A stretch of 48,666 nucleotides of DNA from a virus, in the IMG/VR virus record IMGVR_UViG_3300031654_000005, positions 1 through 48,666 of that record; one strand, 5' to 3'. The first letter of the stretch is position 1, and each line of letters starts with the position of its first letter. The notes under the pieces were generated by a model. The model did not search any database, was not told the origin of the DNA, and was given only the letters and a program-made list of their open reading frames with translations. This document shows, one piece after another, positions 11,288 through 42,473 of the stretch. The translations under genes were made by a program, and so were the position numbers.

Positions 11288-11316
11288 TTGAAGTAATTAA
11301 ATTCAAATGATATAAT
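11288..11316 (+). promoter_or_regulatory. Promoter of the packaging operon
   Basis: TTGAAG (11288-11293) and TATAAT (11311-11316) are 17 bases apart. Transcription would start near 11323, placing the whole AGAGCTCCA hairpin element in the 5' leader of the methyltransferase-terminase operon. Confidence 0.65.
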
Positions 11317-11336
11317 TAAAAAAATAGAATATTTGT

Positions 11337-11401
11337 AGAGCTCCAAAATAGAGAGCCATTTAAAAGAAGTTTAATACTTCTTTGGTGGCTCTCTTTTTTT
11401 T
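11337..11401 (+). terminator. Leader attenuator, repeated element copy A
   Basis: AGAGCTCCA (11337-11345) is followed by AGAGAGCCA (11350-11358), which pairs perfectly with TGGCTCTCT (11386-11394). An inner stem pairs 11363-11370 with 11376-11383 over 8 bp. A T-run (11394-11401) completes an intrinsic terminator. It lies between a promoter and the ribosome site of the 11421 gene, so it would cut the leader unless antiterminated. Copies B (22310) and C (42410) share the motifs but have different inner stems. It may also end transcripts of the upstream moron. Confidence 0.75.
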
Positions 11402-11420
11402 ATTTTAGGGAGGAGAAATA

Positions 11421-12359
11421 ATGCAATATTTAGAAAATTATAACAAAATGAAATTTGCTATACAGGAATGTTATAGGGTTGATGAAATTAAGTTAATTAG
11501 AGATAAGGCTGAAGCATATCGTTATGTAATGATACAGGCAAAGGAAAGTCCTGAATTAATTAGAAAAGCAGAAGAAATAAAATTAAGGGCAGAACGAAGA
11601 GCAGGGGAGTTACTGAAAGAACAGGTAAGAAAACCAGAAGAAGGAAGACCAAAAGAAGGGTCAGAGACTCTTACCCTTATTGATATGGAAGTACGCAAAG
11701 ACCAATCTTCTAATTGGCAAAGAATAGCTTCTATACCCGAAGAGAAATTTGAAGAATATATACAGACTAAAAAAGAGATAACTACTTCCGGGGCTATTAA
11801 ATTAGCGAGAAAATTGCAAAGGGAAAACGAATTTGAAGGAACTCCTGAATTGCCAAAAGGCAAATATAATGTTATCTATGCCGACCCTCCTTGGTCTTAT
11901 GGAGATACACTTGTTGAGGGTTATGGTTCAGTTGAGCGTCATTATACTTCAATGACTATACAAGAATTATGTGATTTAGATATTAAAAGTATTGTAGATG
12001 ATAATGCAGTTTTATTTTTGTGGGTTACTTCGCCATTATTAGAGGAATGTTTTGAAGTAATAAAAGCATGGGGTTTTAAATATAAGGCATCTTTTATCTG
12101 GGATAAAGTGAAGCATAACTGGGGACATTACAATTCTGTAAGGCATGAATTTTTATTAATATGTGTAAAAGGTTCTTTCCCTAAACAAAATAAAGAATTG
12201 GAAGATAGCGTGATATCAATAGAAAGGTCAAAAGAACATTCAGAAAAGCCAGAATATTTCCGTAAATTGATAGAAAAGATGTATCCGAATAGTAAAAAAG
12301 AAGAATTATTTGCCAGACGAAAAACAGAAAATTGGAATATATGGGGAGCTCAAATATGA
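11421..12359 (+). CDS. MT-A70 family DNA N6-adenine methyltransferase
   Basis: A 312-residue protein. The C-terminal domain (about 145-312) is an MT-A70 methyltransferase with catalytic DPPW at 155-158, followed by HYTSMTIQELCDL and LFLWVTSPLLEEC, as in phage and bacterial adenine methylases. The N-terminal 140 residues are helical and charged (AERRAGELLKE), an extension common in phage members that may recognise DNA. It is the first gene after attenuator A and has a strong AGGGAGGAG site. It overlaps the nuclease-like gene by ATGA. It probably methylates adenine to protect phage DNA or to mark it for packaging or replication. Confidence 0.85.
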   Translation: MQYLENYNKMKFAIQECYRVDEIKLIRDKAEAYRYVMIQAKESPELIRKAEEIKLRAERRAGELLKEQVRKPEEGRPKEGSETLTLIDMEVRKDQSSNWQRIASIPEEKFEEYIQTKKEITTSGAIKLARKLQRENEFEGTPELPKGKYNVIYADPPWSYGDTLVEGYGSVERHYTSMTIQELCDLDIKSIVDDNAVLFLWVTSPLLEECFEVIKAWGFKYKASFIWDKVKHNWGHYNSVRHEFLLICVKGSFPKQNKELEDSVISIERSKEHSEKPEYFRKLIEKMYPNSKKEELFARRKTENWNIWGAQI

Positions 12360-12832
12360 ATAATTACGAAAATTATTCTGAGGAAAAGCGAAATGAGGGA
12401 GAAGAATATCAAGATTTTGTAGTTAATAAATTATATGAAATTGGATTGGTAATTGTAACTTATATAAGTAGAAAATATCAATTTACAGAGGGCGAAAATA
12501 AAGCAGGACTTGAAATAAAATTTGATGAGAGGCTTGAAGAAACAGGAAATCTTTATATAGAAATAGCAGAGAAATCTAATCCAGATAATGAAAATTATGT
12601 TTCCTCTGGGATTTATCGTAAGGATAATTCTTGGCTTTGGGCTATTGGGAATTATCAATTTATATATATATTTAGTAAAAAATATTTAAAACTATTATAT
12701 GTTTCAAAAAGATATCAAGAAGTTGAAAATAAAACAAAAACATCAAGAGGATTTTTATTACCTACGATAAAAAGTAAATTTTCTCATAAAGGAGATGCAG
12801 AAAAATATTCCATTAAAGAAATTATTTGTTGA
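12356..12832 (+). CDS. PD-(D/E)XK-like protein paired with the methyltransferase
   Basis: A 158-residue protein starting at ATG 12356, coupled by ATGA to the MT-A70 gene. An N-terminal helix (EGEEYQDFVVNKLYE) leads into GENKAGLEIKFD (46-57), where E53-x-K55 could be the ExK of a restriction-endonuclease fold, then NLYIEIAEKSN. This resembles small bacterial and phage proteins with a nuclease-like core. Coupling to a DNA methyltransferase suggests a compact restriction-modification pair or a nuclease acting on unmethylated DNA. Catalytic competence is not proven. Confidence 0.5.
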   Translation: MNNYENYSEEKRNEGEEYQDFVVNKLYEIGLVIVTYISRKYQFTEGENKAGLEIKFDERLEETGNLYIEIAEKSNPDNENYVSSGIYRKDNSWLWAIGNYQFIYIFSKKYLKLLYVSKRYQEVENKTKTSRGFLLPTIKSKFSHKGDAEKYSIKEIIC

Positions 12833-12852
12833 AAGGAAAAGTAATTATAGAG

Positions 12853-13065
12853 ATGAGGAGAACTTGGAAAGAAAAACATAATGATGTATTAAAAAATAAA
12901 AAAGACATTATTAGAAAATATAATAACGATATGCCAATTAAAGAAATAGCCAAAATATACAAAGTATCTACGGGTTGCATAAGCAATAATCTAAAGCTAT
13001 GGGGAATACGGAAAAAACATGGTATTAAATATATTTTAGGCAAGTTAATTTTAGAAGGTAATTAA
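12853..13065 (+). CDS. HTH protein upstream of terminase (70 aa)
   Basis: A 70-residue protein, taking ATG 12853; TTG 12826 is possible but would overlap the previous gene. The HTH runs through DIIRKYNNDMPIKEIAKIY, then STGCISNNLKLWGIRKK, closely related to the protein at 7086. It ends two bases before the terminase small subunit. It may be a DNA-recognition accessory of packaging or a regulator of the late operon. Confidence 0.55.
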   Translation: MRRTWKEKHNDVLKNKKDIIRKYNNDMPIKEIAKIYKVSTGCISNNLKLWGIRKKHGIKYILGKLILEGN

Positions 13066-13067
13066 TT

Positions 13068-13529
13068 ATGAAATTAAAAAGAACTTTGCGAGTACGAAAA
13101 TTTATAGACGCATATATCGATAATGGTGGCAATGCTACAAAAGCATTTTTGACTATTAATCCTAATGCAAAAAACCCCCGTCAATATGGTTATAGAATGT
13201 TACAAAAAGTAGACATTTCAGTATCTGAATTTTTTGATAAAGCAGGGATAACCGATATTCAGTTAAGCAAGAAATTAAAAGAAGGTTTAGACGCTACTAA
13301 AGTAATATCAGTAATACCTATTCCACCGAAAGAAGCAAAGCCAGGCACCGGTGATTTACCCGATGCCAATTCCAAAAATATAGAATTTATTGATGTGCCA
13401 GATTTCAATGTGAGGGTGAAGTATTTGGATATGGCGTATAAGCTAAAAGATAAATTTCCTTCTGAAAAGCATAAATTGGAAGTTGAAGGAGATATTACAA
13501 TTAAGGTGAAATTGCCTAAAAATGATTAA
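13068..13529 (+). CDS. terS: Terminase small subunit
   Basis: A 153-residue protein. Residues 8-30 are the characteristic RKFIDAYIDNGGNATKAFL helix-turn-helix that binds the packaging site. The middle (ISVSEFFDKAGITDIQLSKKLKEGL) and the end (MAYKLKDKFPSEKHKLEVEG) match the family of small subunits paired with PBSX-type large subunits. It would form a ring that selects phage DNA and regulates the large subunit. It overlaps the large-subunit gene by 8 bases. Confidence 0.88.
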   Translation: MKLKRTLRVRKFIDAYIDNGGNATKAFLTINPNAKNPRQYGYRMLQKVDISVSEFFDKAGITDIQLSKKLKEGLDATKVISVIPIPPKEAKPGTGDLPDANSKNIEFIDVPDFNVRVKYLDMAYKLKDKFPSEKHKLEVEGDITIKVKLPKND

Positions 13530-14781
13530 AGTTGATATTTCTGATAAGGGACTTTTTAACGAAGTTTATATCCCCTATCTAAAAAACAAGATAAGAACAC
13601 AAATATATTACGGTGGGGCATCTGCTGGGAAATCGGTATTTATTTCTCAACGGTGCGTAACCGACATTTTAGAAGGTGATAGAAATTATCTCGTAATTAG
13701 AAACACAGCCAATACTCTGAGAACATCAATATATAATGAGATTAAAAAAGTTATCTCAAATTATAATCTTGAGAAGTTATTTAAAATTAATAAATCCGAG
13801 ATGACTATTACTTGTGTTAATGGATATCAAATTCTTTTTAGGGGACTGGATGATGCAGAAAAACTCAAATCGATAATCCCGGAGAAAGGGGTCATTACCG
13901 ATATTCTGATAGAAGAAGCAACCGAAACAAAAAGAGATGATGTTAAACAATTATATAAGAGATTAAGAGGTAAATCTAAAGTCTTAAAACGGTTAACATT
14001 ATGTTTCAATCCCATTTTCCGGACCCACTGGATATTCAAAGAATATTTTAAAAACTGGGTAGAAGGCGAAACCGAATATCATGATGACAGATTATCGATT
14101 CTAAAGACAACCTATAAAGACAACCTGAGATTCCTAGAACAAGACGATATTGATGAGCTGGAGAATGAGCAAGATCCTTATTACCGGGAAGTCTACACCT
14201 TGGGAAACTGGGGGATTTTAGGAGATTTAATCTTTACCAACTGGAAGATCGAAGATCTTTCGGGAATTAAAAATACCTTTGGTATCTACTATAACGGGCT
14301 TGATTTTGGATTTGCGAACGATCCTACCGCAGCAGGAAGACAGGCCATAAAGGGGAAGAAATTATATATACTGCAGGAATTATTATATGAACTCGGGTTA
14401 AATAATGATGTTATAGCAACGAGACTAAAACCGGATATTAATAAAGAATATATAAGGTGTGATTCATCTGAACCAAAATCAATAGCAGAATTAAGGACTT
14501 ATGGAATAGAAGCTTTGCCGGCCAAGAAAGGTCCGGGAAGTGTCAATTTTGGTATTCAATATATGAGACAATTCGAAATTATAATTGATAGAAAATGCCA
14601 GAATGCAATAAATGAATTTCAATTATATCAATGGAAAAAGAATAAAGACGGAATAAACATTAATGAACCGGTGGATAGAAATAATCATTTTATTGATCAG
14701 GTCCGTTATGCCCTTAACGACAGGATTTTCGAGAAGAAGGAAGAAAAACCTTATACTGCCCAGGAACTAGGAATATTTTAA
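13522..14781 (+). CDS. terL: Terminase large subunit
   Basis: A 419-residue packaging motor and nuclease. The ATPase domain has Walker A GGASAGKS (31-38), Walker B ILIEEATE (128-135) and the coupling segment around LCFNPIF (160-166). The RNase-H-like nuclease domain has D261 in GLDFGFANDP, D314 in RCDSSE and D392 in NHFIDQVRYAL as likely metal ligands. Length and motifs fit the PBSX/SPP1-like group, suggesting headful cleavage, which agrees with the permuted ends. It works with the small subunit upstream and the portal downstream. Confidence 0.95.
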   Translation: MIKVDISDKGLFNEVYIPYLKNKIRTQIYYGGASAGKSVFISQRCVTDILEGDRNYLVIRNTANTLRTSIYNEIKKVISNYNLEKLFKINKSEMTITCVNGYQILFRGLDDAEKLKSIIPEKGVITDILIEEATETKRDDVKQLYKRLRGKSKVLKRLTLCFNPIFRTHWIFKEYFKNWVEGETEYHDDRLSILKTTYKDNLRFLEQDDIDELENEQDPYYREVYTLGNWGILGDLIFTNWKIEDLSGIKNTFGIYYNGLDFGFANDPTAAGRQAIKGKKLYILQELLYELGLNNDVIATRLKPDINKEYIRCDSSEPKSIAELRTYGIEALPAKKGPGSVNFGIQYMRQFEIIIDRKCQNAINEFQLYQWKKNKDGININEPVDRNNHFIDQVRYALNDRIFEKKEEKPYTAQELGIF

Positions 14782-14803
14782 AAATAAAGGAAAGGAGAAT
14801 ATC

Positions 14804-16183
14804 ATGAAGATAGAAGATATCTTAAAAATGCATGGTAAGGATTTTAAGAAATTAACAGAACTATTATGTAAGGACCCAAAGGAAAGAGATCTTGAATTAT
14901 ATGAAAAACAATATACTGGTGATCATGAAATAAAAAACCGGCCCGATAAAATTATAGGCAAAGGTAAAACGTTAAAGAGAATTCCACAAGCGAAAGAAGT
15001 CATCCAATTTCAAAAGAAGATTGTCAATATGGCCGTATCTTTTTTATTCGGCGATCCAGTGAAATTAATATTAGGGAATAAAGAGGATAAATTCCAGGAG
15101 ACTTTTTCTCTAATAGATGATATCTGGAAAAAAGACAAATTAGATTATTTCAATAAGAAGTTGACGCGCAGGCTATTTGTGGAAACGAAAGTGGCCGAAC
15201 TTTGGTATACAATAATCGATAACGAAAATAATAAATATATTAAAGTGTCCCTGCTATGTAAGAAAAACGGCGATGATATCTATGCTCATTTTAATGAAAA
15301 CGGAGACATGGATGCCTTTACCCGCAGGTATAAACTTGAAGATATTGACGGTAAAAAATACGAGCATGTAGATATTTATACTGCGGATAAAGTTAGGAAA
15401 GGAACGAAAAAAGAATCTTGGGAAGTTGAAGAAAAAGATAATCTATTTAAAAAAATCCCGATAATTTATTACGATCAGGATGAGCCGGAATGGATGAGTG
15501 TTCAGACTGAAATTGACAGAATCGAAATGTTAATTTCTAAATTTGCCGATACAAACGATTATTTTGGAGCACCTATTATAAAACTAAAAGGAAAAATAAA
15601 AAACCCACCGGAAAAGGGGGAAATAGGCAAAACCTTGCAATTCGAAGGTGAGGCCGGGGCGGAAGGTAAAATAGAGTATGGAGATGCCTCATATTTAACC
15701 TGGGAACATGCACCGGAATCCGTAAAATTAGAATATGAGACTTTGAAAGATATCATATATTCTATAACTTCAACCCCCGATTTATCCTTTAATAACGTTA
15801 AAGGATTTGCGAAAACATCAGGAGAAGCCCTCAAATTCCTTTTCATGGATGCTATTCTAAAAGCGAAAGACAAAGAAGAACTATTCGGAGAATCATTGAC
15901 TAGGAGAATCAATTTATTAAAGGCAATATTATCTATAACAGATGTAAGAGAAGCAAAGAATTTACAGGAGCTAGATATATCAATTAAATTCGGGAATATT
16001 CTACCTCAGGATATGTCGGAACTTATAAAGGCATTATCAACAGCAAGAGCGGGCGATGCCATCATGAGCGAAAAGGAAGCAGTAAGACAAAATCCACTAG
16101 TAGAAGATTCAGAAGAAGATATCAAAAGACTAGAAGAAGAGCGGGGAAAATTATCAAAATTAGGGGAATCCTATGAAACATAA
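14804..16183 (+). CDS. Portal protein, SPP1 gp6-like
   Basis: A 459-residue protein of the SPP1 gp6-like portal family (PF05133), close to the usual length. The region around residue 325 (ITSTPDLSFNNVKGFAKTSG) followed by EALKFLFMDAILKAKDKEELFGE is the typical clip/stem area. The C-terminus is acidic and helical. Twelve copies would form the portal vertex through which terminase pumps DNA. AAAGGAGA precedes the ATG. Its end overlaps the sugar dehydrogenase gene by 11 bases. Confidence 0.92.
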   Translation: MKIEDILKMHGKDFKKLTELLCKDPKERDLELYEKQYTGDHEIKNRPDKIIGKGKTLKRIPQAKEVIQFQKKIVNMAVSFLFGDPVKLILGNKEDKFQETFSLIDDIWKKDKLDYFNKKLTRRLFVETKVAELWYTIIDNENNKYIKVSLLCKKNGDDIYAHFNENGDMDAFTRRYKLEDIDGKKYEHVDIYTADKVRKGTKKESWEVEEKDNLFKKIPIIYYDQDEPEWMSVQTEIDRIEMLISKFADTNDYFGAPIIKLKGKIKNPPEKGEIGKTLQFEGEAGAEGKIEYGDASYLTWEHAPESVKLEYETLKDIIYSITSTPDLSFNNVKGFAKTSGEALKFLFMDAILKAKDKEELFGESLTRRINLLKAILSITDVREAKNLQELDISIKFGNILPQDMSELIKALSTARAGDAIMSEKEAVRQNPLVEDSEEDIKRLEEERGKLSKLGESYET

Positions 16184-16973
16184 CAGAATAAATCTTGCTG
16201 TAGTGGGTTGTGGAGTTATCGGAAATAGTCTCATTGGTTTATTAGAAGATATGGGGCATATAGTTCAGCGATATGATCCACCTAAAGGTTACGGTTGTGA
16301 TATTTCCAGATGTAAAATTGTATTCGTTTGCGTACCTACTGAAGCTGATATGAAATTTGAAGATGTCAGAATGGCAGTAAACTATATAAACTCTAAAAAC
16401 AAAAAAGGAATAATCGCCATAAGGTCCACCATCATGCCAGGAATGACTGATGAATTTACAAAAAGATATAAAAGGGAATTTGTCTATCTGCCTGAATTCT
16501 TACGGGAACGGACAGCGTTCTTAGACGAAATCTGTCCTGATAAAATAATTGTAGGGACCAGGAAAAGAGAAGTATTCGAGATATTCAAAGGACTTTTCAA
16601 GCGTGCGGTAGATAATAAAAACAAAATAATAATGATGAAACCGGTAGAAGCAGAATTATTAAAGGTGGCCCTGAATAGTCTGTATACCGTAAAAGTAGTA
16701 TTCGGGAATGAGCTATACGATATATGCCAGAAATATGGGGCAGACTACTATAAATTATTACAGGCATTTAAGCTGGATAAATATATTAATGCAATGCATC
16801 TTGATCCATTATTCGATGGTTACAGGGGGGCAGGGGGTAAATGTTTAAGCAAGGATATAAAGTTTTTGATAAAAGCGGGAGTTGTAAAGGGTTACTTGCC
16901 TGAGATGATGGAGTTGGCTGATGAGGAGAATGAGAGTTTGTTGGATAAGGGGGTAATAGTTGGAAGTAAATAA
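16173..16973 (+). CDS. Nucleotide-sugar (UDP-glucose type) dehydrogenase, short form
   Basis: A 266-residue member of the UDP-glucose/GDP-mannose dehydrogenase family. The NAD-binding Rossmann motif is GCGVIG (12-17). RSTIMPGMTD and LPEFLRER follow, and the catalytic cysteine is C224 in GAGGKCLSKDI. Bacterial enzymes run to about 430 residues with a second Rossmann-like sugar-binding domain, and this one stops about 40 residues after the active site. It may use a partner, a small substrate or be inactive. It sits unexpectedly between portal and minor head genes and overlaps the next gene by 14 bases. It may supply uronic acids to the glycosyltransferases at 19449 or 28611. Confidence 0.78.
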   Translation: MKHNRINLAVVGCGVIGNSLIGLLEDMGHIVQRYDPPKGYGCDISRCKIVFVCVPTEADMKFEDVRMAVNYINSKNKKGIIAIRSTIMPGMTDEFTKRYKREFVYLPEFLRERTAFLDEICPDKIIVGTRKREVFEIFKGLFKRAVDNKNKIIMMKPVEAELLKVALNSLYTVKVVFGNELYDICQKYGADYYKLLQAFKLDKYINAMHLDPLFDGYRGAGGKCLSKDIKFLIKAGVVKGYLPEMMELADEENESLLDKGVIVGSK

Positions 16974-18655: not shown

Positions 18656-18656
18656 T

Positions 18657-18833
18657 ATGCCATTAGTGAGATGTAGAAAAGATAATAAACCGGGCTGGAA
18701 ATACGGAAGAGATAATAAATCTTGTTTTACTTATACTGCTGGCAATGAAAAATCCGAAGCGGCAGCAAAATTAAAAGCCATTAAGCAAGGGATTGAAATT
18801 AGCAGGGAATCAGGAGAAAAGTTTGAACCGTAA
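18657..18833 (+). CDS. Small conserved head-region protein (58 aa)
   Basis: A 58-residue protein starting PLVRCRKDNKPGWKYG, then CFTYTAGNEKSEAAAKLKAIKQG. This pattern is familiar from short phage proteins lying next to head morphogenesis genes, with unknown function. ATCGAGGTGAA precedes the ATG. It overlaps the metallopeptidase-like gene by 11 bases. Confidence 0.7.
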   Translation: MPLVRCRKDNKPGWKYGRDNKSCFTYTAGNEKSEAAAKLKAIKQGIEISRESGEKFEP

Positions 18834-19158: not shown

Positions 19159-19166
19159 AGTGGTGT

Positions 19167-19206: not shown

Positions 19207-19246
19207 AGGAGGATAAATAAGTAGACCATATTTTGAAACTCAAGTA

Positions 19247-19399: not shown

Positions 19400-19448
19400 A
19401 AAACAAATCTTGATAATCAGAATTACTATTTTAGAGAAGGAGGATTAA

Positions 19449-22228: not shown

Positions 22229-22255
22229 AAGGGGATAGGATTATTTTATTTTAAC

Positions 22256-22309: not shown

Positions 22310-22407
22310 AGAGCTCCAAGAGAGAGCCAGAACCCCTAGAGGGTCAGAGCTCCAAGAGAGCCATTTTGAGAAGTTTTAAAAGCTTCTTCGAGTGGCTCTT
22401 TTTTTTT
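22310..22407 (+). terminator. Leader attenuator, repeated element copy B (tandem)
   Basis: Here the motif pair occurs twice. AGAGCTCCA and AGAGAGCCA lie at 22310-22318 and 22321-22329, and again at 22346-22354 and 22355-22363. The second AGAGCCA (22357-22363) pairs with TGGCTCT (22393-22399), an inner stem pairs 22368-22373 with 22383-22388, and nine Ts follow (22399-22407). It lies between a promoter and the small gene before scaffold. The extra upstream AGAGAGCCA could compete for the same 3' strand, which would give an antiterminated form. Confidence 0.75.
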
Positions 22408-22442
22408 ATGCAGGAATAATTAAATCAGGAGCGTACAAAAGA

Positions 22443-22634
22443 ATGCCAGAAACAGAAAAAGAAAGACAGAAAAAATGGGAAATTACCAACGCAGTGGATA
22501 CTTTGATTAAAGCTGTGGAAATCAGAAAAGATAAGAAACTGATGTCAGAAGTAGAAAGGGAAGTAAAAAAGAAACAGAATGATATATCTGAAGTATTGAG
22601 AAATTCGGCTATAAAAGTAATTTCGGAAAAATAA
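22443..22634 (+). CDS. Small helical protein before scaffold (63 aa)
   Basis: A 63-residue charged helical protein (PETEKERQKKWEITNAVDTL...). I chose ATG 22443, with AGGAG at 22427-22431; the frame is open further upstream only through the terminator. It is the first gene after attenuator B. No family was recognised. It may be a scaffold partner or a regulator of the module. Confidence 0.55.
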   Translation: MPETEKERQKKWEITNAVDTLIKAVEIRKDKKLMSEVEREVKKKQNDISEVLRNSAIKVISEK

Positions 22635-22655
22635 AATTAATAAGGAGAAAATAAA

Positions 22656-23402
22656 ATGGACTTAATAACTCAAATTAAAACTGCTTTAAAGAAAGCGGGG
22701 CTTGATGAGGGATTAGCAGAAAAAATCAAGGTGACAGATGAAAGTCAAATTGATGCAGAAATTGAAAAGTTAAAAGGGAAAATTGAACTGACCCCGGAAC
22801 AACTTGTCGCTGCTGTTAAAGAAGCTGGGCTGGAAGAAAGTTTTAATAAGTACCTGCAGAGCGAGACAGACCGGAGGGTATCGCAGGCCATCACTACACA
22901 TGATCTAAAATCGGCAAAAGAAAAAGAAGAGACAGCCGCAAAGGAAAAGGCCGAAGAAAAGAAAAAGAAAGAGCAGGCAGATATGAGCGATTCCGAAAAG
23001 AAAATATCAGATCTGACCGAAGAAGTTAGTAAATTGACTACTTTAGTAAAGGATTTGAGCGGGACAACTGTTAAGACAAAGCGGGAGACTTTAATCAAAG
23101 ATGCCCTAAAAAAAGCAGATTTGAGCGAAGGATTCTCAAAATATATTACAGTTGATAAAGACGAGGACATCGAGGAAAGTGTAAAAAATCTAAAGGATCA
23201 AGTTCTGGAACACAAACAAGCCGAAATTGATGAGAAACTTAAAGGTGGAGAAGTACCTCCGAAGGGTGAACCGGCGGGAACCGTTGGAGAAGAAACAGCG
23301 AAGACTTTTGCAGAAGAAAAAAATAAAGGGGCCAAAGGACAACCTTTTCAGGGACTATCAGAAGAAGAAATCAAGAAAGGCGAAGAAATTAAAGAAAAAT
23401 AA
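22656..23402 (+). CDS. Scaffolding protein
   Basis: A 248-residue, extremely charged, helical protein with a long coiled coil (about 85-140, rich in Lys/Glu/Ala) and a disordered C-terminal tail. Two similar segments (KKAGLDEGLAEKI near 13, KKADLSEGFSKYI near 156) suggest an internal duplication. Size, composition and position just before decoration and major capsid genes fit a phage scaffold (DUF4355-like) that organises the procapsid and then leaves. No protease gene is evident. Confidence 0.75.
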   Translation: MDLITQIKTALKKAGLDEGLAEKIKVTDESQIDAEIEKLKGKIELTPEQLVAAVKEAGLEESFNKYLQSETDRRVSQAITTHDLKSAKEKEETAAKEKAEEKKKKEQADMSDSEKKISDLTEEVSKLTTLVKDLSGTTVKTKRETLIKDALKKADLSEGFSKYITVDKDEDIEESVKNLKDQVLEHKQAEIDEKLKGGEVPPKGEPAGTVGEETAKTFAEEKNKGAKGQPFQGLSEEEIKKGEEIKEK

Positions 23403-23426
23403 TAAATCAAACGAGGTGAAAATATA

Positions 23427-24029
23427 ATGAGTTTACAGATAGAAAAAGATTCAGGATCTGTTTATGATCCTGTATTTCTAAAAATATTAGAAGATATTCC
23501 CGGCGGGGTGACTATAAAAACTAATAGATTCCCAACTGCCACCAAGGAAATTAAAAAAGGAGCATTATTAAATGCTGATGTTTCCAGTGCGGGATTATAT
23601 AACGTAATCAAAACTGTAAAAATAGTTAATAAAGTAGTTTCGGCAGGCACTGTTATGGTAATCGAACCTACTGATCATTTATTTAAAGTAGGTGAATTCC
23701 TATATATTTATGGGGTAACTGCCTCGACAATTACCAGAGTATCAACTACTGGAATCGCTGTTGCGGGAGCACTGGTAGGAGCAACTGGTGGTATAGTATC
23801 AGGTTCAGTCTTATACGAAACTGCCACTGTTGCCACTGCAACCGCTCTGTATGGCGCAGATGCCATTTTACGGGATAACGTAGAGGTAAGAAAAGGCGGA
23901 GTAGCAACTCTACTGGATAATTTATTTGCGGGTGCTGTTGTTAGAGGAACCGTAGATGAGTCCGAATTACCTTATTTCGTTACAACCCAACATAAAACTG
24001 ACTTAACTGCCAGGATAAGATTTGCATAA
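23427..24029 (+). CDS. Head decoration / head fibre protein candidate
   Basis: A 200-residue, Ala/Val/Thr-rich beta protein with low charge, as for capsid-surface proteins. It begins SLQIEKDSGSVYDPVFLK and contains repeated GxVVxAGTVM-like strands. Its place between scaffold and major capsid protein is the usual position of decoration proteins. It shares the CGAGGTGAA ribosome site style with the capsid gene. It probably stabilises the shell. Confidence 0.6.
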   Translation: MSLQIEKDSGSVYDPVFLKILEDIPGGVTIKTNRFPTATKEIKKGALLNADVSSAGLYNVIKTVKIVNKVVSAGTVMVIEPTDHLFKVGEFLYIYGVTASTITRVSTTGIAVAGALVGATGGIVSGSVLYETATVATATALYGADAILRDNVEVRKGGVATLLDNLFAGAVVRGTVDESELPYFVTTQHKTDLTARIRFA

Positions 24030-24064
24030 AGATTAAATAAAAATATCAAACGAGGTGAAATAAA

Positions 24065-25189
24065 ATGGAATATAGTTTATTAAAAGAAATAGACAAAAAA
24101 AGTTTGCAGGCCTATCTTATTGCCCGTGTATTCGAAAAATTATTTTGGCCTACATTTTTTCCTTTAAAATCAACACCTTATTTAACTTACGAAACCTTAG
24201 TCGGGAGTAAGGGAAACAGGGTAGCTGCCGATGTAGTTGCATACGATGTAAGTGCACCGCTAAAGACTAGAAGGACCGTAAGTAAATTAACTGGAGAAAT
24301 CCCTTCTATCAGAATGAAAAAGAAAATGACAGAAAAGGATTTGAACACCTATAATATTTTAAAGGCAATGGCGAGACCAGAACAGAAGGCTCTACTTGAC
24401 CTTGTATTTGGAGATGTAGACGATTGTATAGATGGAGTAAATGCCCGGTTAGAGTGGATAATATTCCAGGCATTATCTAAAGGACAAATAACGCTTTCTA
24501 CCGTTACAAATGCTGCAGGAGTAATAACAGAAGAGGCCATCGATTTTGGACTTCCTTCAGCTAATAAAGAAGTCGTTGTGGGTGCCAATACTACTAAATG
24601 GACAATTTCTCTTGCTGCAACTTCTAAACCTATAACCGATATAGAATATGTCCTTGAGCAGGCCCGGGACGCCGGAGTAGACCCAAAATATATACTAATG
24701 AATCGTTCTAAATGGTTAGCATTTAGAGTATCAACTCAAGTTAAAGATTTCGTGCTTCCATTTGCTATTTATGGCGGAACAAGGCTAAAAAGAGCTCCTA
24801 CAATTGAAGTGGCAAATAATGCTTTAAAATCTGAAGGACTCCCTCAGATAGTCATAATTGATACCAGGATAAGCTACGAGGATGCAGAACATACAATTAC
24901 ATCAGTTGATCCCTGGTTAGATTCTGCTGGCGCGGACAGATATGTAACTTTCATGGAAGATCTAAAGTGCGGAGATATGCTCTACGGACCAATAGCCGAA
25001 GAAACCAATCCACCCAAACAAGTGGTTCAAGCCAAGAAAGGACCTATTTTGATTTCCAAATGGTCTGATGTAGATCCTGTGGCCGAATATACCAAAGGTG
25101 AACTTAATGCATTCCCATCCTGGCCCACAATAGATAGAGTATTTTCTCTTGATACCGAAATGTCGACTACCGGAGCATGGGGTACATAA
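24065..25189 (+). CDS. Major capsid protein
   Basis: A 374-residue protein with HK97-like features of the major capsid protein E group: an N-terminal arm, FEKLFWPTFFP, an alanine-rich spine helix region and a C-terminal domain with WSDVDPVAEYTKGE. Size, position after scaffold and decoration genes, and the strong ACGAGGTGAA ribosome site support the call. It would form the icosahedral shell. Confidence 0.85.
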   Translation: MEYSLLKEIDKKSLQAYLIARVFEKLFWPTFFPLKSTPYLTYETLVGSKGNRVAADVVAYDVSAPLKTRRTVSKLTGEIPSIRMKKKMTEKDLNTYNILKAMARPEQKALLDLVFGDVDDCIDGVNARLEWIIFQALSKGQITLSTVTNAAGVITEEAIDFGLPSANKEVVVGANTTKWTISLAATSKPITDIEYVLEQARDAGVDPKYILMNRSKWLAFRVSTQVKDFVLPFAIYGGTRLKRAPTIEVANNALKSEGLPQIVIIDTRISYEDAEHTITSVDPWLDSAGADRYVTFMEDLKCGDMLYGPIAEETNPPKQVVQAKKGPILISKWSDVDPVAEYTKGELNAFPSWPTIDRVFSLDTEMSTTGAWGT

Positions 25190-25199
25190 TCTAAATATT

Positions 25200-34836: not shown

Positions 34837-34837
34837 T

Positions 34838-35611: not shown

Positions 35612-35649
35612 GAGAATAAAAAAATATAAATATATAAGGAGATAAAATA

Positions 35650-36888
35650 ATGACAGATTATAATTCGATTCACAAAGGAGCGGACATCGATGAGGCTGTA
35701 AGAAATGTTCTTGCAGCTATGAGACAAGAGACATTTATCCATACAGATGGAGTGACGGCTCTTGCATCTCATTCAAATATGATATGGATACCAAAATATG
35801 TAACTGCGGGTTTTGTAGCTCAACCGAATTTAAACGGGATAAATATGGGCGGATTCTGGGTTGATAAATATCAATGCAGCCAACCTGACTCTACTATGGC
35901 TTCGAGAGGTGGCACAGCAGCTAATACCCCCGGAGCTATTCCCGGAGTATCACAAGTACTCAAAGTGCCCTGGACAGATATTTCCTGGGTTAATGCAAAA
36001 GTAGCCTGTGAAAATAGGGGAGCTTCTAACACGAGCACAGCTTCGGCGGCAGCAGGAGCAGCCAATGAATTAACCGATACAGTCCACTTACCCACATATG
36101 CAGTAGGTACACAAATACAGATTACTCTTGTCGCTGATGGACTAACTTATATAAGGCGAATTACTGGATTTAATCCTGCTGCAACAACGGTATATTTTGA
36201 ACCTGACCTACCGTCGAATGTGGCAAGTGGCGATAGTTACACTATACCAGAATACCACATGGTAACAGCTTACGAATGGGCAAGTATGGCTTATTTGGCT
36301 TGTATGATTTTTGGTGATAAGAGAAGAGCAGGGATTGACCTTCCAAAAGGAAATAATAATTATGGTAGAGATTACCAGGATGCTGATTCCCCTGAAAATT
36401 ATGGAATGAGAGATCCTATAGAACCTGGAACTGATGATGGTATCGATAGATGTCTTACCGGAAGCGGTCCGAACACTTGGAGTTTAACCGGACATCCACT
36501 CGGAGTTTGGGGTTTAAATGGAAATGTTTATGAATGGATAGACCTACTTATGGGTGGCGGAAATAGTGTATCTGGAGTAGGCGGAACAGACCATATAATT
36601 AATCCTGGATTCCCGGAAGCTGGATTAACTCTGCCAAATTCGTCTAATTACATAGCTACCCTTGAAGATTCTGACGTTAACGGGAAAAAAGCAGCATTAC
36701 CTAAAACGACTGGCTCAGCTGTTCTTGAATATGGAAGTGACAAGGCTTACTTGGCTTATACTGGCGAAAGGGCTGCGGGACGTGGCGGCTTTTGGGATAT
36801 TACTTTGGATGCTGGAATTCTCGGTCTGAATTTGGGTTATGCACCGTCGAGTACGTACAGCAGTCTCGGGTTCCGTGCTGCAAGATAA
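35650..36888 (+). CDS. C-type-lectin/FGE-fold tail protein, DGR variable protein
   Basis: A 412-residue protein. The first 60 residues are a helical attachment region. From MIWIPKYVTAGF onward it has the formylglycine-generating-enzyme-like C-type lectin fold (GGFWVDKYQCSQPD, WTDISWVNAKVAC, MVTAYEWASMAY, GNVYEWIDL). The end (378-412) runs RGGFWDITLDAG to APSSTYSSLGFRAAR, the usual form of a DGR variable region in which AAY codons of a template have been randomised. It would be the receptor-binding protein on the tail, with a binding site on the exposed lectin face. Confidence 0.82.
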   Translation: MTDYNSIHKGADIDEAVRNVLAAMRQETFIHTDGVTALASHSNMIWIPKYVTAGFVAQPNLNGINMGGFWVDKYQCSQPDSTMASRGGTAANTPGAIPGVSQVLKVPWTDISWVNAKVACENRGASNTSTASAAAGAANELTDTVHLPTYAVGTQIQITLVADGLTYIRRITGFNPAATTVYFEPDLPSNVASGDSYTIPEYHMVTAYEWASMAYLACMIFGDKRRAGIDLPKGNNNYGRDYQDADSPENYGMRDPIEPGTDDGIDRCLTGSGPNTWSLTGHPLGVWGLNGNVYEWIDLLMGGGNSVSGVGGTDHIINPGFPEAGLTLPNSSNYIATLEDSDVNGKKAALPKTTGSAVLEYGSDKAYLAYTGERAAGRGGFWDITLDAGILGLNLGYAPSSTYSSLGFRAAR

Positions 36889-36896
36889 TATTATCT
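36781..36896 (+). promoter_or_regulatory. DGR variable repeat and downstream palindrome
   Basis: 36781-36885 encode the last 35 residues of the lectin protein. Codons at the expected variable positions (GAT, ATT, ACT, TAT, AGT, TAC, AGC) are what adenine-specific mutagenesis of AAT/AAC would give. A perfect 14-bp palindrome AGATAATATTATCT (36883-36896) straddles the stop codon, in the place where DGRs carry a hairpin needed for retrohoming. No template repeat was seen elsewhere. Confidence 0.6.
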
Positions 36897-36921
36897 GTAA
36901 TCTGGTATCGGAGAATCTGTT

Positions 36922-37188
36922 TTGAATGAAAAATTAATAATTTACCAAAAAACATATGATTTAATTTTATATCTGTTTCCAATTCTCGATAAATTTCCGA
37001 GAAAGCAGAGATTTGTTTTAGCTCAGCAGGTAGAAAATTGCATGGTAGATATACAAAAACTTATTATTCAGGCGAATAAAAGTAGATACAAGATTCCACA
37101 TCTTTTCCAGATTGACGTGGAATTAGAAAAACTAAGATTACTAATTAGACTTGCTAAAGATTTAAGATTTTTATCAATTACTGGATAA
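36922..37188 (+). CDS. avd: DGR accessory protein Avd, C-terminally shortened
   Basis: An 88-residue protein from TTG 36922 behind CGGAGA. Its helices (IIYQKTYDLILYLFPILDKFPRKQRF, AQQVENCMVDIQKLIIQA, VELEKLRLLIRLAKDLRFL) match the four-helix Avd/23S-intervening-sequence-like family that binds the DGR reverse transcriptase and template RNA. Family members run to about 110-130 residues. This one stops within what should be the fourth helix. The reverse transcriptase that normally follows is missing, and an HNH gene stands in its place. Confidence 0.75.
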   Translation: MNEKLIIYQKTYDLILYLFPILDKFPRKQRFVLAQQVENCMVDIQKLIIQANKSRYKIPHLFQIDVELEKLRLLIRLAKDLRFLSITG

Positions 37189-37213
37189 CTGGATAAACGA
37201 ATTGGAATAACTC

Positions 37214-37242
37214 TTGTTATTATGTATATTATATGGTATAAT
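37214..37242 (+). promoter_or_regulatory. Promoter of the HNH gene (leaderless)
   Basis: TTGTTA (37214-37219) and TATAAT (37237-37242) are 17 bases apart. The ATG at 37248 is only 5 bases after the -10 box, so transcription would begin at or next to the start codon. Confidence 0.6.
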
Positions 37243-37247
37243 AAGAT

Positions 37248-37949
37248 ATGTTAAAATACAGTAATTATATAATATATAGAGGGAAGAAGATTCCTTTAAA
37301 TAAATTAAAACCAAATAGTAAGAAAAAAATTGTTATTACGTGCCCTAAATGCGGAGTTGTTTTTGAAAGATATTTTTCAGTATTAAATAAATCGGGTTCT
37401 TTTCTTTGTCAAAAATGTGCAATTAAAAAAAAGTTATCAAAAACAATAAAGCCTGGCACAAAGAAAAATAGATTAACGGTTTTGAAACCTGCGGAAAAAA
37501 GTGGGTATTCAATTTTTAGATGTGACTGCGGAAATATATGTGAAGTATCAAATAGTAATTTTTTATTAGACAAAACAAAAAGCTGTGGTTGTTTAAGGAA
37601 AGAGAATATAAAAAAAGTCTCTCGCCATTATTTTGGCAAAAAACATTGGAATTGGCAAGGTGGAATTACAGGAGAAAGACAATGCAAAATGACAAAAGGC
37701 AATTATAGGATATGGAGAAAAGATGTATATAAAAGAGACAATTATATTTGCCAAAAATGCGGGCAAAAAGGTGGCATTTTAAATGCTCATCATATCAAAG
37801 ATTATCAAGGGAATAAAGATAAGATTCTCGATATAAATAACGGTATTACGTTTTGCGAAGATTGTCATAAAGAATTTCATAGAATTTATGGAAGGAAAAA
37901 ATTAACAAGAGAAATGGTCAATGAATTTTGCGAAGAAAAAAGATTTTAA
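37248..37949 (+). CDS. HNH endonuclease with N-terminal zinc modules
   Basis: A 233-residue protein with paired cysteines at 32/35 and 54/57 (zinc ribbon), 92/94 and 113/115 (a second, CDCGN...CGCL module) and a C-terminal HNH domain: CQKC (168-171), HH (181-182), N198 and CEDCHKEFH (203-211). This is a different HNH subfamily from the four related proteins elsewhere in the genome. It sits where the DGR reverse transcriptase would be expected and has its own leaderless promoter. Confidence 0.82.
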   Translation: MLKYSNYIIYRGKKIPLNKLKPNSKKKIVITCPKCGVVFERYFSVLNKSGSFLCQKCAIKKKLSKTIKPGTKKNRLTVLKPAEKSGYSIFRCDCGNICEVSNSNFLLDKTKSCGCLRKENIKKVSRHYFGKKHWNWQGGITGERQCKMTKGNYRIWRKDVYKRDNYICQKCGQKGGILNAHHIKDYQGNKDKILDINNGITFCEDCHKEFHRIYGRKKLTREMVNEFCEEKRF

Positions 37950-37994
37950 GGAGTTTTGTTTTAAAATAATAATATAGAAAGGAGATTAAATAAA

Positions 37995-38366
37995 ATGTAT
38001 AAATATTTAATTAAAGAACAGATAAATTCTGAAACCGGCAAACAGGAAGAAACATTATTTGCCGAGGATATTTTAGAGGATAAAATAATTGATAAAAAAG
38101 TGATTGCTAAAATTAGAAAAGAATATAGTATAGATGAAGAAATTAAAGCATTAAGGAAAGGGATATTAGACAAGAATAATATAGATTTTCAAAGTTATAA
38201 TTCCCATGTAGAAAGCTGTAAAACCTGGGGAGAAGAGCAAAAAATAAAGGCTGGACAGGAAAGGCAAGTCTGGAAAGATAATTTTAGGCTAAGAAATGAA
38301 TCAGAAAAAGAATATATTGGTCGTCTAAAAGTTGTCTTAAAATCGCAGGAAATCATTAGTAAATAA
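37995..38366 (+). CDS. Tail-region protein, unknown (123 aa)
   Basis: A 123-residue, charged, helical protein (YKYLIKEQINSETGKQEE at the start; KEYIGRLKVVLKSQEII at the end) with AAAGGAG before the ATG. It lies directly before the tail hub gene, as do small tail-assembly or fibre-associated proteins in related phages. No domain was recognised. Confidence 0.6.
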   Translation: MYKYLIKEQINSETGKQEETLFAEDILEDKIIDKKVIAKIRKEYSIDEEIKALRKGILDKNNIDFQSYNSHVESCKTWGEEQKIKAGQERQVWKDNFRLRNESEKEYIGRLKVVLKSQEIISK

Positions 38367-38375
38367 GGAGAAATA

Positions 38376-41231
38376 ATGCTAGATATCTATAGAGGTGCAG
38401 AAGTTAATCTTAGTCTTCATATAGATGATAACACGAGACTCATTCGTCAGTTGTTGGGTGAGGATATCATAAAGTCAACGTTTAATTCTCATGATATCTT
38501 AGACATCACTATCGGCGATTACGTTATTTATGATGGTATAAACTATTATGTAAATAACCTCCCAAATATCAAAAAGAGCAGTTCAAATTCATTTGATTAT
38601 AACCTCGTTTTCGAGTCCGAGTATTATGAATTATTGAAGACCCAATTTTTAGATAGTGACGGAAACTCCGATTTTGACTTGGTGGGGAATTTAGAAACTT
38701 TTATTAATTTAATTGTAACCAACATGAACCGAACGCATTCAGATTGGGCAAAGGGGACTTGCGACCAGACAAATGCAGACTATAAGCTGCTACACTTTTC
38801 CAAAGCTAATTGTATGCAAGTCTTGCAAAAACTATGTAATGAATTTGAAGGGGAATTTTATTTCGATGAAAAAGATATTTGTTTTACTGATAAGGCGGGC
38901 AGTGATTCCGGTTTAACTTTTATGTATAAGCAAGGTTTGAGAAATATACAACGGACTACACTAAGTGAAAAAAATATCATTACAAGGCTGTATGCTTTTG
39001 GCTCAGAGAAAAATTTAGCAAATGATTACAGAGACCATTCAAGAAGATTGATATTTGTAGATGGCGGATTATCCTACCTTGAAAAGAATGTTGATGAGTA
39101 TGGCACAATTGAACATACAGAAATATTTGAGGATATTTACCCACACCGGGAAGGGACTATTAGCGCGGTTGATGGGGCGGATATAACAAAATTTACTGAT
39201 AGTGGAATGGATTTTAACCTGAATGATTATCTGCTTTCCGGCGTAACTGCAAAACTCCATTTTAATTCTGGGAATTTAGGCGGGTATGAATTTGAAGTCT
39301 CTGCTTATAATAACGCTACCAAAGAATTTACTATTATAGCCTATAAGGACGAGGTAGGTTATGAAATGCCGAATGCCACTTTAAAGCCTGCTGTTGGTGA
39401 TAAATATGTTCTACTTGAAATATATCTTCCACAATCTTATATAGATACTGCTGAAACAGCCCTACAAGCCAAAGCCCAAACCTATATTGATGATAACTGC
39501 GAACCGAGAGTAACCTATATCCTCACTCCTGACCCCCGTTATTTTAAAACCCATCTTATTGACCTTAAAGCAGGGGATTTTATTACAATAGAAGATACAG
39601 ATTTAGGGATAGATGTAATGACCCGGATAGTAGAATTAACTAAATCGGTGGCTAATGAATATAAATATACTCTAAAATTAACTGATCATTTAGAAGTACA
39701 ATTGATCCAACGGCTATATTCCGAGCAGGAAGATTTGAAAGAAAAAATAGAGATTGGTTATGGTGGCGATATTATAAGGTCAAGGCGGAATTGGAGAACT
39801 TCAGAAGAATTAAGGACGATGGTTTTTGATACAGACGGATATTTCGATATGGGAAATATCCGGCCTGCTTCGGTTGAAACCGGAATGCTGTCAGTTGGGG
39901 CAAAATCTACACAGTTTATTTTAAAGGAAATTGAAATTGAGGGGAACTATCAATCCGATGTAAGCAAATTCCATGCCAGTGCAGGTCAACTGATTCATTT
40001 ATCGATTGCGGATGAGATAAGAACATGGACACTATCGGAGAATACCCAGGATAGCTTGGTAAATGCTACACCATATTATATTTACGCAAAATGCACTAAA
40101 GAGCCCGGATATACCGGGCAGATTGTAGTCGATGAAACGCAAAAAAAATTTGATGATGACGAGACCTATTATTATTTCCTGATTGGTGTATTGCATTCTG
40201 TAGTTGAAGGAGTGCGGGGAGTATCTCTTACTTATGGCCAGACGATTATAAACGGTAAATATATCCGAACCGGAAAAATAGAATCCACTAATGGATTGGT
40301 ATATTTTGATTTAGATAATAATACGCTCGTTCTTCCCAATGGCTCGGTTACTGCCGGCAAAATAACAGTTGATAATCTGGCAGCTATTAATGCTGATATG
40401 GGAAGTCTAACCGCAGGTGATATTACTTTAGATAATACTGGCTTTATTCGTTCATCCGGTAAAAATTATGGCGATGCTGTAGCCGGTTTCTGGATGGGTT
40501 ACAATGTAGATAAATATAAATTGCATATCGGAACGAATACGGAATATCTAAAATGGGATGGTTCTAATCTTACTATTGCAGGAAGTATTATAATAAAAGG
40601 TGGTTCAGGAATAGCAAATTTAACCGATGCGGGAGCTTTAGCAACTTTAGATAGTATTGCCTATTCGGCTATAACAGGAACAAAACCTCCGACCAATGCA
40701 GACCATACCGATGATATTGTAAGTGATTTGGCCTATTATAATTTAGTATCGGCAGCCCTATTGGATAATACCGTTATTGTAGGTGGTTATATAAAAACGA
40801 GTCTATTAACTGCAACTAACATCAGGACAGGAACTTTAAGGTCAGTTCGAGTTCAAGTTGGTGGCGGAACTAATGAAGATATATATTTTGAAGATAGCGG
40901 AATCAGGTTTTATGATGCAAGCGGAAGTGGATTAATATTTTCTAAGGCAGGTTTGCAAAGTTTCTTTATTAATATGATTTCCACCGCTATCTCATTCGGT
41001 GGAATTGGAATAGCAAGAGTGGAAGTATATAACGACAATAAAATAGTTCTCAATGCTGTAAATAATGCTTTGATATTTTATAGCGGGGGAACATTACAAA
41101 TGCCTTCTTTAACTTCTGCACCTACTGCGCATGTAGGAGATTACGCTTATATGAACGTTTCCCCTTGGCAAATGAAATTTTATAATGGTGCTGGTGGATG
41201 GGAATATGCTTTAGATGGAAGTGGGTGGTAA
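38376..41231 (+). CDS. Tail hub / tail-associated protein with fibre-like C-terminus
   Basis: A 951-residue protein. Residues 1-430 resemble the tail hub (Tal, gp27-like) of siphophages: LDIYRGAEVNLSL, then KANCMQVLQKLCNEFEGEF and a late strand-rich part with DLKAGDFITIEDTDLG. Residues 470-951 are beta-rich repeats with GKITVDNLAAINADMG and ATNIRTGTLRSVRVQVG, like trimeric fibre shafts. The C-terminal tip (HVGDYAYMNVSPWQMKFYNG) is the usual end of phage tail-fibre proteins. It probably closes the tail tip and opens during infection. Confidence 0.75.
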   Translation: MLDIYRGAEVNLSLHIDDNTRLIRQLLGEDIIKSTFNSHDILDITIGDYVIYDGINYYVNNLPNIKKSSSNSFDYNLVFESEYYELLKTQFLDSDGNSDFDLVGNLETFINLIVTNMNRTHSDWAKGTCDQTNADYKLLHFSKANCMQVLQKLCNEFEGEFYFDEKDICFTDKAGSDSGLTFMYKQGLRNIQRTTLSEKNIITRLYAFGSEKNLANDYRDHSRRLIFVDGGLSYLEKNVDEYGTIEHTEIFEDIYPHREGTISAVDGADITKFTDSGMDFNLNDYLLSGVTAKLHFNSGNLGGYEFEVSAYNNATKEFTIIAYKDEVGYEMPNATLKPAVGDKYVLLEIYLPQSYIDTAETALQAKAQTYIDDNCEPRVTYILTPDPRYFKTHLIDLKAGDFITIEDTDLGIDVMTRIVELTKSVANEYKYTLKLTDHLEVQLIQRLYSEQEDLKEKIEIGYGGDIIRSRRNWRTSEELRTMVFDTDGYFDMGNIRPASVETGMLSVGAKSTQFILKEIEIEGNYQSDVSKFHASAGQLIHLSIADEIRTWTLSENTQDSLVNATPYYIYAKCTKEPGYTGQIVVDETQKKFDDDETYYYFLIGVLHSVVEGVRGVSLTYGQTIINGKYIRTGKIESTNGLVYFDLDNNTLVLPNGSVTAGKITVDNLAAINADMGSLTAGDITLDNTGFIRSSGKNYGDAVAGFWMGYNVDKYKLHIGTNTEYLKWDGSNLTIAGSIIIKGGSGIANLTDAGALATLDSIAYSAITGTKPPTNADHTDDIVSDLAYYNLVSAALLDNTVIVGGYIKTSLLTATNIRTGTLRSVRVQVGGGTNEDIYFEDSGIRFYDASGSGLIFSKAGLQSFFINMISTAISFGGIGIARVEVYNDNKIVLNAVNNALIFYSGGTLQMPSLTSAPTAHVGDYAYMNVSPWQMKFYNGAGGWEYALDGSGW

Positions 41232-41728
41232 AAATTAAATTATACATAAACATTAAGCAAATGACTTTTGAAGAGGATAATATTGAACACGATATTGTTG
41301 TAAATATAATAGGAGAAAAACACCTTGGTTATGATTTGGAGATTGATTTACCCGATGATGATAAATTCATCAAAAAGACACTAAAAACAATTTACAAAAA
41401 AGATAAAGATAATAAGGATACAGACGAGATAGAACATAAGATATTCATTACAAGAGAACAGGAAACTTGGAATAGCTTTCCTTTATACGAGATATTGGAT
41501 GGAGTAATAGTTGATTTTAATTATACCAAATATGGATATTTTGCAGATACAGATAGGAGAGTGGCTTTAGGGAAAAAGATAAACAACTTGTATAACGTTT
41601 ATGCAGAGTTAAAAATGTATAGAAAAACCCTCAAAACAATATTAGACCACTTGGGGATTGTAGATGAAAGTTTTGAAAAGTATAATACAAAGATAGAAAA
41701 TATTATAAATAAGAATCCAAAAAATTGA
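41225..41728 (+). CDS. Tail-tip associated protein, unknown (167 aa)
   Basis: A 167-residue protein, taking GTG 41225, which overlaps the hub stop by 7 bases and has GATGGAAG upstream; a longer frame from TTG 41198 lies inside the hub gene. It is rich in Asp/Lys, with VKIKLYINIKQMTFEED first and a C-terminal helix (KTILDHLGIVDESFEKY). No family was recognised. It is the last gene before the second moron-like cassette. Confidence 0.6.
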   Translation: MVKIKLYINIKQMTFEEDNIEHDIVVNIIGEKHLGYDLEIDLPDDDKFIKKTLKTIYKKDKDNKDTDEIEHKIFITREQETWNSFPLYEILDGVIVDFNYTKYGYFADTDRRVALGKKINNLYNVYAELKMYRKTLKTILDHLGIVDESFEKYNTKIENIINKNPKN

Positions 41729-41753
41729 AATGTTTAAAAAAGAGGTTTATAAT
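41725..41753 (+). promoter_or_regulatory. Promoter of the second moron-like cassette
   Basis: TTGAAA (41725-41730) and TATAAT (41748-41753) are 17 bases apart. It would start a message near 41760 that reads only the secreted protein and ends at element C (42410-42473). Confidence 0.72.
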
Positions 41754-41792
41754 TAGACATAGAAAAATTTAATATATTTGAGGGGGTATAAA

Positions 41793-42380
41793 ATGAAAAG
41801 AAAAGTATTTTTATCATTCTTTATTATGTTATTAATCTTTTCTTTAACCCTAACAATTTTAGCAGAAAAGCAAGTATATGATTTAAGAAATACAAATTGG
41901 GGAACGAGTAAAGAGCAGGTTAAGACAGCAGAAAAAAGTGAAATTGCAGAGTTATATGAAGATGGTTTTGCTTATAAAGATAAAGTTGCTGATCTTGATT
42001 GTAATGTTATCTTTCAATTTTTAGAAAATAAATTATATATTGCTGGTTATATGTTTACTCAATATCATACAAATTTAAATTTTTGGATTGATGACTTTAA
42101 TAAATTAAAAAATATATTGATAGAAAAATATAATAAACCGGTTGCAGATAAAATAATATGGTTAGATGACATGTTTAAAGGAGATGCTCAAAATTATGGA
42201 ACTGCAGTCTCCGCAGGTCAATTAGTTTATTATACTGAGTGGGATACCCCAAAAACAAAAATATGGATAGGTTTAAAGGGTGATAATTATCAAATAGATT
42301 TGAGAATTATATACGAAAGCAAAGAATTAAAAGAATGGTCAGATAAAATATTAGAAGAAAAAAGCAAAAGTGAATTTTAG
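41793..42380 (+). CDS. Secreted moron-like protein, WG-motif family
   Basis: A 195-residue protein from ATG 41793 with GAGGGGG 7 bases upstream; TTG 41778 is in frame but sits before that site. Residues 1-23 are a signal peptide, probably cut after ILA. The mature part has DLRNTNWGTSKEQVK and FNKLKNILIEKYNKP, which parallels the 10748 protein in layout though the sequences have diverged. It has its own promoter and terminator, so it is probably expressed independently of late genes, for example in a lysogen. Confidence 0.65.
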   Translation: MKRKVFLSFFIMLLIFSLTLTILAEKQVYDLRNTNWGTSKEQVKTAEKSEIAELYEDGFAYKDKVADLDCNVIFQFLENKLYIAGYMFTQYHTNLNFWIDDFNKLKNILIEKYNKPVADKIIWLDDMFKGDAQNYGTAVSAGQLVYYTEWDTPKTKIWIGLKGDNYQIDLRIIYESKELKEWSDKILEEKSKSEF

Positions 42381-42409
42381 TTAAATAATTTCTAAAAATT
42401 AAATAATGG

Positions 42410-42473
42410 AGAGCTCCACTTTTAGAGAGCCAAGAATAAGAATGATAAAACATTCTGTTTTTGGCTCTTTTTT
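42410..42473 (+). terminator. Terminator/attenuator, repeated element copy C
   Basis: AGAGCTCCA (42410-42418) and AGAGAGCCA (42424-42432) precede a terminator: AGAGCCA (42426-42432) pairs with TGGCTCT (42462-42468), an inner stem pairs AGAATG (42439-42444) with CATTCT (42451-42456), and Ts run 42468-42473. No clear promoter lies between the moron stop and this copy, so here it may mainly end the moron transcript and limit read-through into the tail-fibre and lysis genes. Confidence 0.72.

Follow-up and report, generated by a model that had tools for sequence, protein, structure and literature searches.

Com-like RNA boxes joined to terminators before late genes of an uncultured phage: a probable antitermination switch

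Com of phage Mu (PF10122, Zn_ribbon_Com) is a small zinc-ribbon protein that acts on the mom mRNA. Its target has the form GA-N4-C-NNN-GA-N4'-C, and the 3' half of this target overlaps an inhibitory hairpin. The core motif selected by SELEX is GAG(N)2CC, which in most cases is present twice around a 3-4 nt stem, and the GA dinucleotide proved to be crucial (PMC6483171). The protein binds a 19-mer of the Mu mom mRNA, GAAUGCCUGCGAGCAUCCC, and a Com zinc finger also bound a designed synthetic hairpin, RNA I (CGAGAACCAGAGAGUUCCGG), in gel shift (PMC6483171). The known role of Com is translational and does not concern termination (PMC6483171). com-like genes have further been seen before lectin-like bacteriocin genes of Pseudomonas, and the review that touches upon them considers a more general regulatory role of Com as still to be explored (PMC6240691). 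A report of Com acting through terminators was not found in the open-access literature. So far, Com is known mainly as a translational switch of one Mu gene.

Read-through of terminators is achieved elsewhere by other means. The antiterminators BglG, SacY and LicT work with the RAT RNA, a hairpin that is stabilised by the protein and overlaps the 5' foot of a terminator; these proteins bind RNA by a CAT domain and also have PTS regulation domains. The put element of HK022 is a phage RNA that favours read-through of distant terminators without any phage protein. The Q protein of lambda uses a DNA site within the promoter for its loading. The late genes of lambda are held behind an early terminator until the phage factor appears (PMC6606751).

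The DNA considered here, called the window, is the entire stretch of 48,666 nucleotides that makes up positions 1-48,666 of IMG/VR record IMGVR_UViG_3300031654_000005. An original prediction had placed a repeated motif pair at 11337, 22310 and 42410, and the pair is present in the sequence at these positions. A scan of the window with AGAGCTCCA-N0-12-AGAGAGCCA gave four matches on the + strand (11337-11358, 22310-22329, 22346-22363 and 42410-42432) and none in the backward-read control of the window. Copy B had been called tandem; its units are indeed repeated, but there are three of them and not two, since GAACCCCTAGAGGGTC at 22330 is the same motif with another stem, unrelated to that of the other boxes in the window.

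All these units can be written as one paired formula. On the + strand, box A (11338-11357) reads GA-GCUC-C-AAAAUA-GA-GAGC-C, box B1 (22311-22328) GA-GCUC-C-AAGA-GA-GAGC-C, box B-mid (22330-22345) GA-ACCC-C-UA-GA-GGGU-C, box B2 (22347-22362) GA-GCUC-C-AA-GA-GAGC-C and box C (42411-42431) GA-GCUC-C-ACUUUUA-GA-GAGC-C. The box B-mid recurs in another locus (L042). When both strands of the window were scanned for the formula with any stem, five sites emerged, all within the elements noted before, while + strand shuffles of the window contained 0.06 boxes on average and never more than one. The loops comprise 2 nt in B-mid and B2, 4 in B1, 6 in A and 7 in C. At gathering score, Rfam had no match in the window, and in 11 loci with an element or a com gene it recognised tRNAs only.

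The resemblance to the Com target is close. AGAGCTCCA and AGAGAGCCA are exactly two copies of GAG(N)2CC enclosing the stem GCUC:GAGC; the five hairpins of the window all consist of two halves that resemble GAG(N)2CC, and both the mom 19-mer GAAUGCCUGCGAGCAUCCC and RNA I fit GA-N4-C-loop-GA-N4'-C. In boxes A and C the loop of 6-7 nt is longer than in known Com targets; the leaders of com genes have 2-3 nt, a size that the loop of 2 in B2 matches. Judged by sequence, the case for boxes of the Com target type is strong.

All three sites of the window end in a hairpin closed by TGGCTCT and followed by a T-run. The last copy at each site folds as a strong intrinsic terminator: A at 11350-11401 (-24.3 kcal/mol), B at 22355-22408 (-25.2 kcal/mol) and C at 42424-42474 (-23.5 kcal/mol), all on the + strand, with the second half of box A, B2 or C, respectively, as the 5' foot. 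By itself the box hairpin is weak (-3.4 to -4.2 kcal/mol). Because of this difference, termination should be the default state, and it must be the binding of a protein that does the work, since about -4 kcal/mol is all that the box hairpin can offer. Forcing the box hairpin to form removes about six pairs from the terminator foot, so that the T-run is no longer adjacent to the stem. In all three copies of the window, the ribosome site and start codon of the next gene come only after the T-run and are not part of the terminator hairpin; the Mu-type trait, in which one or the other is enclosed in the inhibitory hairpin, is thus absent from them.

Good promoters had been claimed before copies A and B. 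The one before A exists as a sigma-70-like sequence on the + strand (11288-11316; TTGAAG-17-TATAAT with an extended TG, 10/12, a match to the consensus only). The one before B fell below the threshold of the promoter scan, which also detected no promoter close upstream of copy C. A stretch resembling AAATA is seen 8-13 nt before AGAG, e.g., at 11324-11336 and 42396-42409 of the window. It occurs in 49 of 60 copies of the C/A class (base-shuffle mean 21.5, maximum 30) but not in those of the T class, and it may serve as a phage-specific kind of promoter element.

The first gene behind copy A (11421-12359, +) encodes an MT-A70 DNA methyltransferase (PF05063, E=7.5e-25; phrog_359), and terminase and portal genes follow. 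Copy A thus precedes a DNA methyltransferase gene, and in Mu, B3, AP3, KS5 and TJ1 com precedes a DNA-modification gene. Behind copy B, a small ORF is followed by genes for a scaffold-like protein, an unknown protein and the major capsid protein (22443-25189, +; PHROGs). Copy C is situated after the tail module; an ORF of 57 amino acids, among small ORFs, and a gene for a virion- or tail-like protein come next (42495-43755, +).

The window also contains a com-like gene. The ORF at 10097-10303 (+), with a TTG start and an internal ATG at 10124, encodes a zinc-ribbon protein of 68 amino acids (RCIRCGRPLFF...IEIKCSKDRCGAINII). It is located some 1-32 kb from the boxes and has the family trait, i.e., a small protein with one four-cysteine zinc ribbon of the type RCxxCxxxL...IEIKCxxC. 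PF10122 alone missed it: the protein scores 16.4 bits, below the curated cut-off of 22.9. A broader profile built from 20 Com-like proteins then found it (match at 10124-10294, E=1.4e-8). Its second knuckle is C-x4-C, a variant that is conserved in related phages. Homologues that are 58-80% identical are present in three of them (G001, G002 and G006), all carriers of the element, and there com is followed on one strand by three elements, as in the window. In four more carriers of A- or C-class elements (G012, G013, G014 and G028), com exceeds the PF10122 cut-off.

A TFIIB-type zinc ribbon (10596-10751, +; PF08271, E=3.4e-7), which lies between com and copy A and is also found in G002 and G031, had been our first candidate for the regulator. 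It was dropped, as no more than two of 30 other element records contain it, whereas Com-like genes are common. The early region of the window further harbours the gene of a radical SAM protein (8376-9194, +; phrog_9298, E=1.2e-67).

The element is not confined to the window. A scan of the 2.9 million viral contigs of IMG/VR for the exact motif pair yielded 78 stretches, and in all of them but one (L074) the pair is followed by a hairpin with TGGCTC, or a sequence close to it, as the closing strand, then by a T-run and a nearby start codon. We conclude that the element is genuine and frequent among a group of uncultured phages related to one another. A relaxed search within these contigs revealed three places that change together: GCTC/GAGC/GGCTC, GCTA/TAGC/GGCTA and GCTT/AAGC/GGCTT. 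A further compensatory change, GCGC/GCGC/GGCGC, is seen in L097. When the three positions were left free, 75 distinct elements remained after filtering, including a few genome_contigs loci found with the T-class pattern; distinct here, as in some of the other counts, means separated by simple identity cut-offs. Strands 1 and 2 pair in 73 of these 75 (permutation mean 37.7, maximum 52). In ten cases the terminator pair between strands 2 and 3 is lost, and in nine of these the pair between strands 1 and 2 is kept. This covariation and its persistence indicate that the RNA folds into a small hairpin, the 3' strand of which also belongs to the terminator foot. The repeats are members of a large RNA family of the form GA-N4-C-loop-GA-N4'-C, in which the N4 strands pair and the second one doubles as the foot of an intrinsic terminator a short way ahead of a start codon. 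The two outcomes that had been named as a test, further copies in other phages and covariation, were thus both obtained, and the presumed selection on the fold is supported. Six loci (L163, L167, L168, L179, L181 and L187) have an additional Com box, with a stem of its own, at the tip of the terminator hairpin. A scan for a G class (AGAGCTGC...) produced only matches within coding sequence that seem fortuitous.

The start codon follows the end of the matched terminator tail at a median distance of 27 nt, and this distance does not exceed 45 nt in 76 of 98 cases. The genes would, therefore, be reached mainly by read-through, as there is little room for a promoter. They encode portal, head maturation protease, major head protein, terminase, scaffold, DNA methyltransferase and ParB-like proteins. 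A terminator in front of downstream genes that must be read through, as had been proposed, is supported by these data.

The linkage of elements and com genes was seen in both directions. Many contigs have, just upstream of the element, a gene for a zinc ribbon with the pattern RCxxCxKLL...EIKCPRCxxxN, which is that of Mu Com. Small zinc-ribbon ORFs on the same strand, up to 600 nt upstream, accompany 27 of 104 distinct elements; 26 of them are Com-like, most of these within 30 nt, and the exception (L057) is of the TFIIB-like type known from the window. The profile search detected a small Com-like ORF (E<=2e-8) in the window and in 15 of 30 other element records, a count to be read with the fact that some of these proteins, or close relatives, were themselves in the profile. 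It detected none in 19 records with false pattern hits and none in three Marinitoga phages; the only two hits among these controls were weak and lay in frames of more than 400 amino acids. For the reverse test, com genes were picked by protein similarity alone, and the 160 nt after the last cysteine were scanned. A paired box was present in 45 of 55 distinct com leaders, but in only 2 of 54 and 2 of 53 stretches that served as controls (mean of shuffles 0.8, maximum 3). The loops of the boxes in com leaders comprise 2-3 nt in 60 of 63 cases.

Most of the boxed com loci that were found by protein (57 of 62) are without a T-run and resemble mom-type leaders. In two loci (L277 at 1632 and L297 at 1661) it is the Shine-Dalgarno sequence or the start codon region of the next gene that is paired to the 3' half of the box, an arrangement that may represent a translational version of the switch. 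The common principle would then be that the 3' half of a box provides the 5' strand of an inhibitory hairpin, be it a terminator or a ribosome block. In another Com match (L311; G046:34581-34715) one TAG was reported within the matched frame, a possible case of stop recoding or of a frame artefact.

Taken together, a Com-like protein probably switches on the late genes by cancelling terminators via the box hairpins. Each leader would carry one or more Com boxes, the last of which lends its 3' half to the terminator as 5' foot. As long as Com is absent, the terminator hairpin would win, and transcription would stop some 70-100 nt into the leader, before the gene. Once the Com-like zinc ribbon (10097-10303) accumulates, it could bind the box RNA as it emerges and keep GCUC paired to GAGC; this would take about six base pairs from the foot of the terminator and part its stem from the T-run. 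RNA polymerase would then read on into the genes for DNA modification, packaging, head and distal late functions. The observed basis of this proposal comprises the elements and the way in which they pair, their agreement with the published target of Com, the com-like gene and the two-way linkage. Binding of Com to these RNAs, read-through as the outcome and the timing are what we infer from it.

This scheme has been weighed against others that share some of its components. If the boxes bind Com, the action might still be post-transcriptional, by freeing a ribosome site or protecting the mRNA, and the hairpins with T-runs would be incidental or end upstream transcripts. The precedent is the translational role of Com on Mu mom (PMC6483171), and L277 and L297 fit. 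In the window, however, the ribosome sites are outside the terminator hairpin, and the canonical stem with its T-run, which a translational switch does not need, is present in nearly all copies. We thus regard a post-transcriptional action as unlikely. That the sites are just ordinary terminators insulating neighbouring operons, with a functionless repeat upstream, accords with their position between transcription units; yet it does not account for a box formula with varied stems, the covariation, the linkage to com and the short distance to the next start codon, and we consider it very improbable.

The original prediction had thought of antitermination that is either put-like or mediated by a protein and controls all late modules. 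Antitermination of several late modules by a protein has become the leading idea. A put-like RNA that modifies RNA polymerase without a phage protein could be imagined, as the element is an RNA present in multiple copies before late genes and in contigs of many sources. But it is not supported: com and the element are linked in both directions, the sequence matches a consensus for protein binding, and a strand shared with the terminator foot bespeaks a local switch, while put acts on distant terminators. The probability of such an RNA is very slight, and the protein in charge is likely the Com-like zinc ribbon of the window, which the original prediction had not noticed. It had also been suggested that two near-identical 5' strands compete for one 3' strand. 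By inspection, a part of AGAGCTCCA (AGAG and CCA, with a bulge of two bases) can indeed pair with TGGCTCT, and a folding switch free of protein could be built on it. This assignment of strands turned out to be wrong, since GCUC pairs with GAGC, and it is GAGC that the terminator foot also uses. The covariation is between strands 1 and 2 (73/75), which remain paired where strand 3 has changed (9/10), and B-mid has another stem without any 3' strand of the TGGCTCT type. A protein-free switch is hardly credible.

A switch operated by a Com-like protein would combine features of the systems mentioned at the beginning. By target and protein it belongs with Com, and its mechanism would resemble that of the RAT-type antiterminators, in which the hairpin likewise overlaps the terminator foot, although protein fold and RNA differ. 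Mu has one site and controls the translation of one gene beside com; the window has several distant boxes joined to terminators before several gene blocks. Unlike put, the element shows linkage to com, and the terminator with which it overlaps is its own. As in lambda, late genes would be kept behind an early terminator, but the signal would be an RNA structure. Like the gene of the window, the com homologues of Pseudomonas are located outside mom operons; an RNA element or a terminator is not described for them in the pertinent passages of the review (PMC6240691).

With somewhat less assurance, we lean towards a wider view: Com proteins may be widespread antitermination factors of phage late genes that use one modular RNA box. 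Its 3' half would be built into a terminator before the late structural modules of phages from several host phyla, or, at mom-type genes, into a hairpin that blocks the ribosome. The data would provide Com with a general rule of RNA recognition and a second type of device, box plus terminator. They suggest that, in phages of many different environments, Com has a multi-gene regulon that includes genes for DNA modification, packaging and the head, and they predict target genes for many uncharacterised phage com genes. They also offer a compact protein-RNA antitermination switch that is testable in E. coli.

By terminase, Marinitoga phages are the nearest (57%), which is a host hint only; the three Marinitoga phages in question have neither the element nor com. 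Searches of INPHARED by blastn or tblastn retrieved no cultured phage with box plus terminator, and in the INPHARED phages inspected com adjoins a methylase or mom-like gene. The T-class element turned up in bacterial genome bins (L155, L156, L159 and L161, from the PVC group, Peptococcaceae, Bacteroidales and Nitrospiraceae), where it usually adjoins a com-like gene; from its presence there, prophages of several phyla seem to carry it. Two prophage-like records, those of L092 and L094, whose identifiers look isolate-derived, combine an A-class box and its terminator with a com above the PF10122 cut-off. They are a possible route to a culturable test system.
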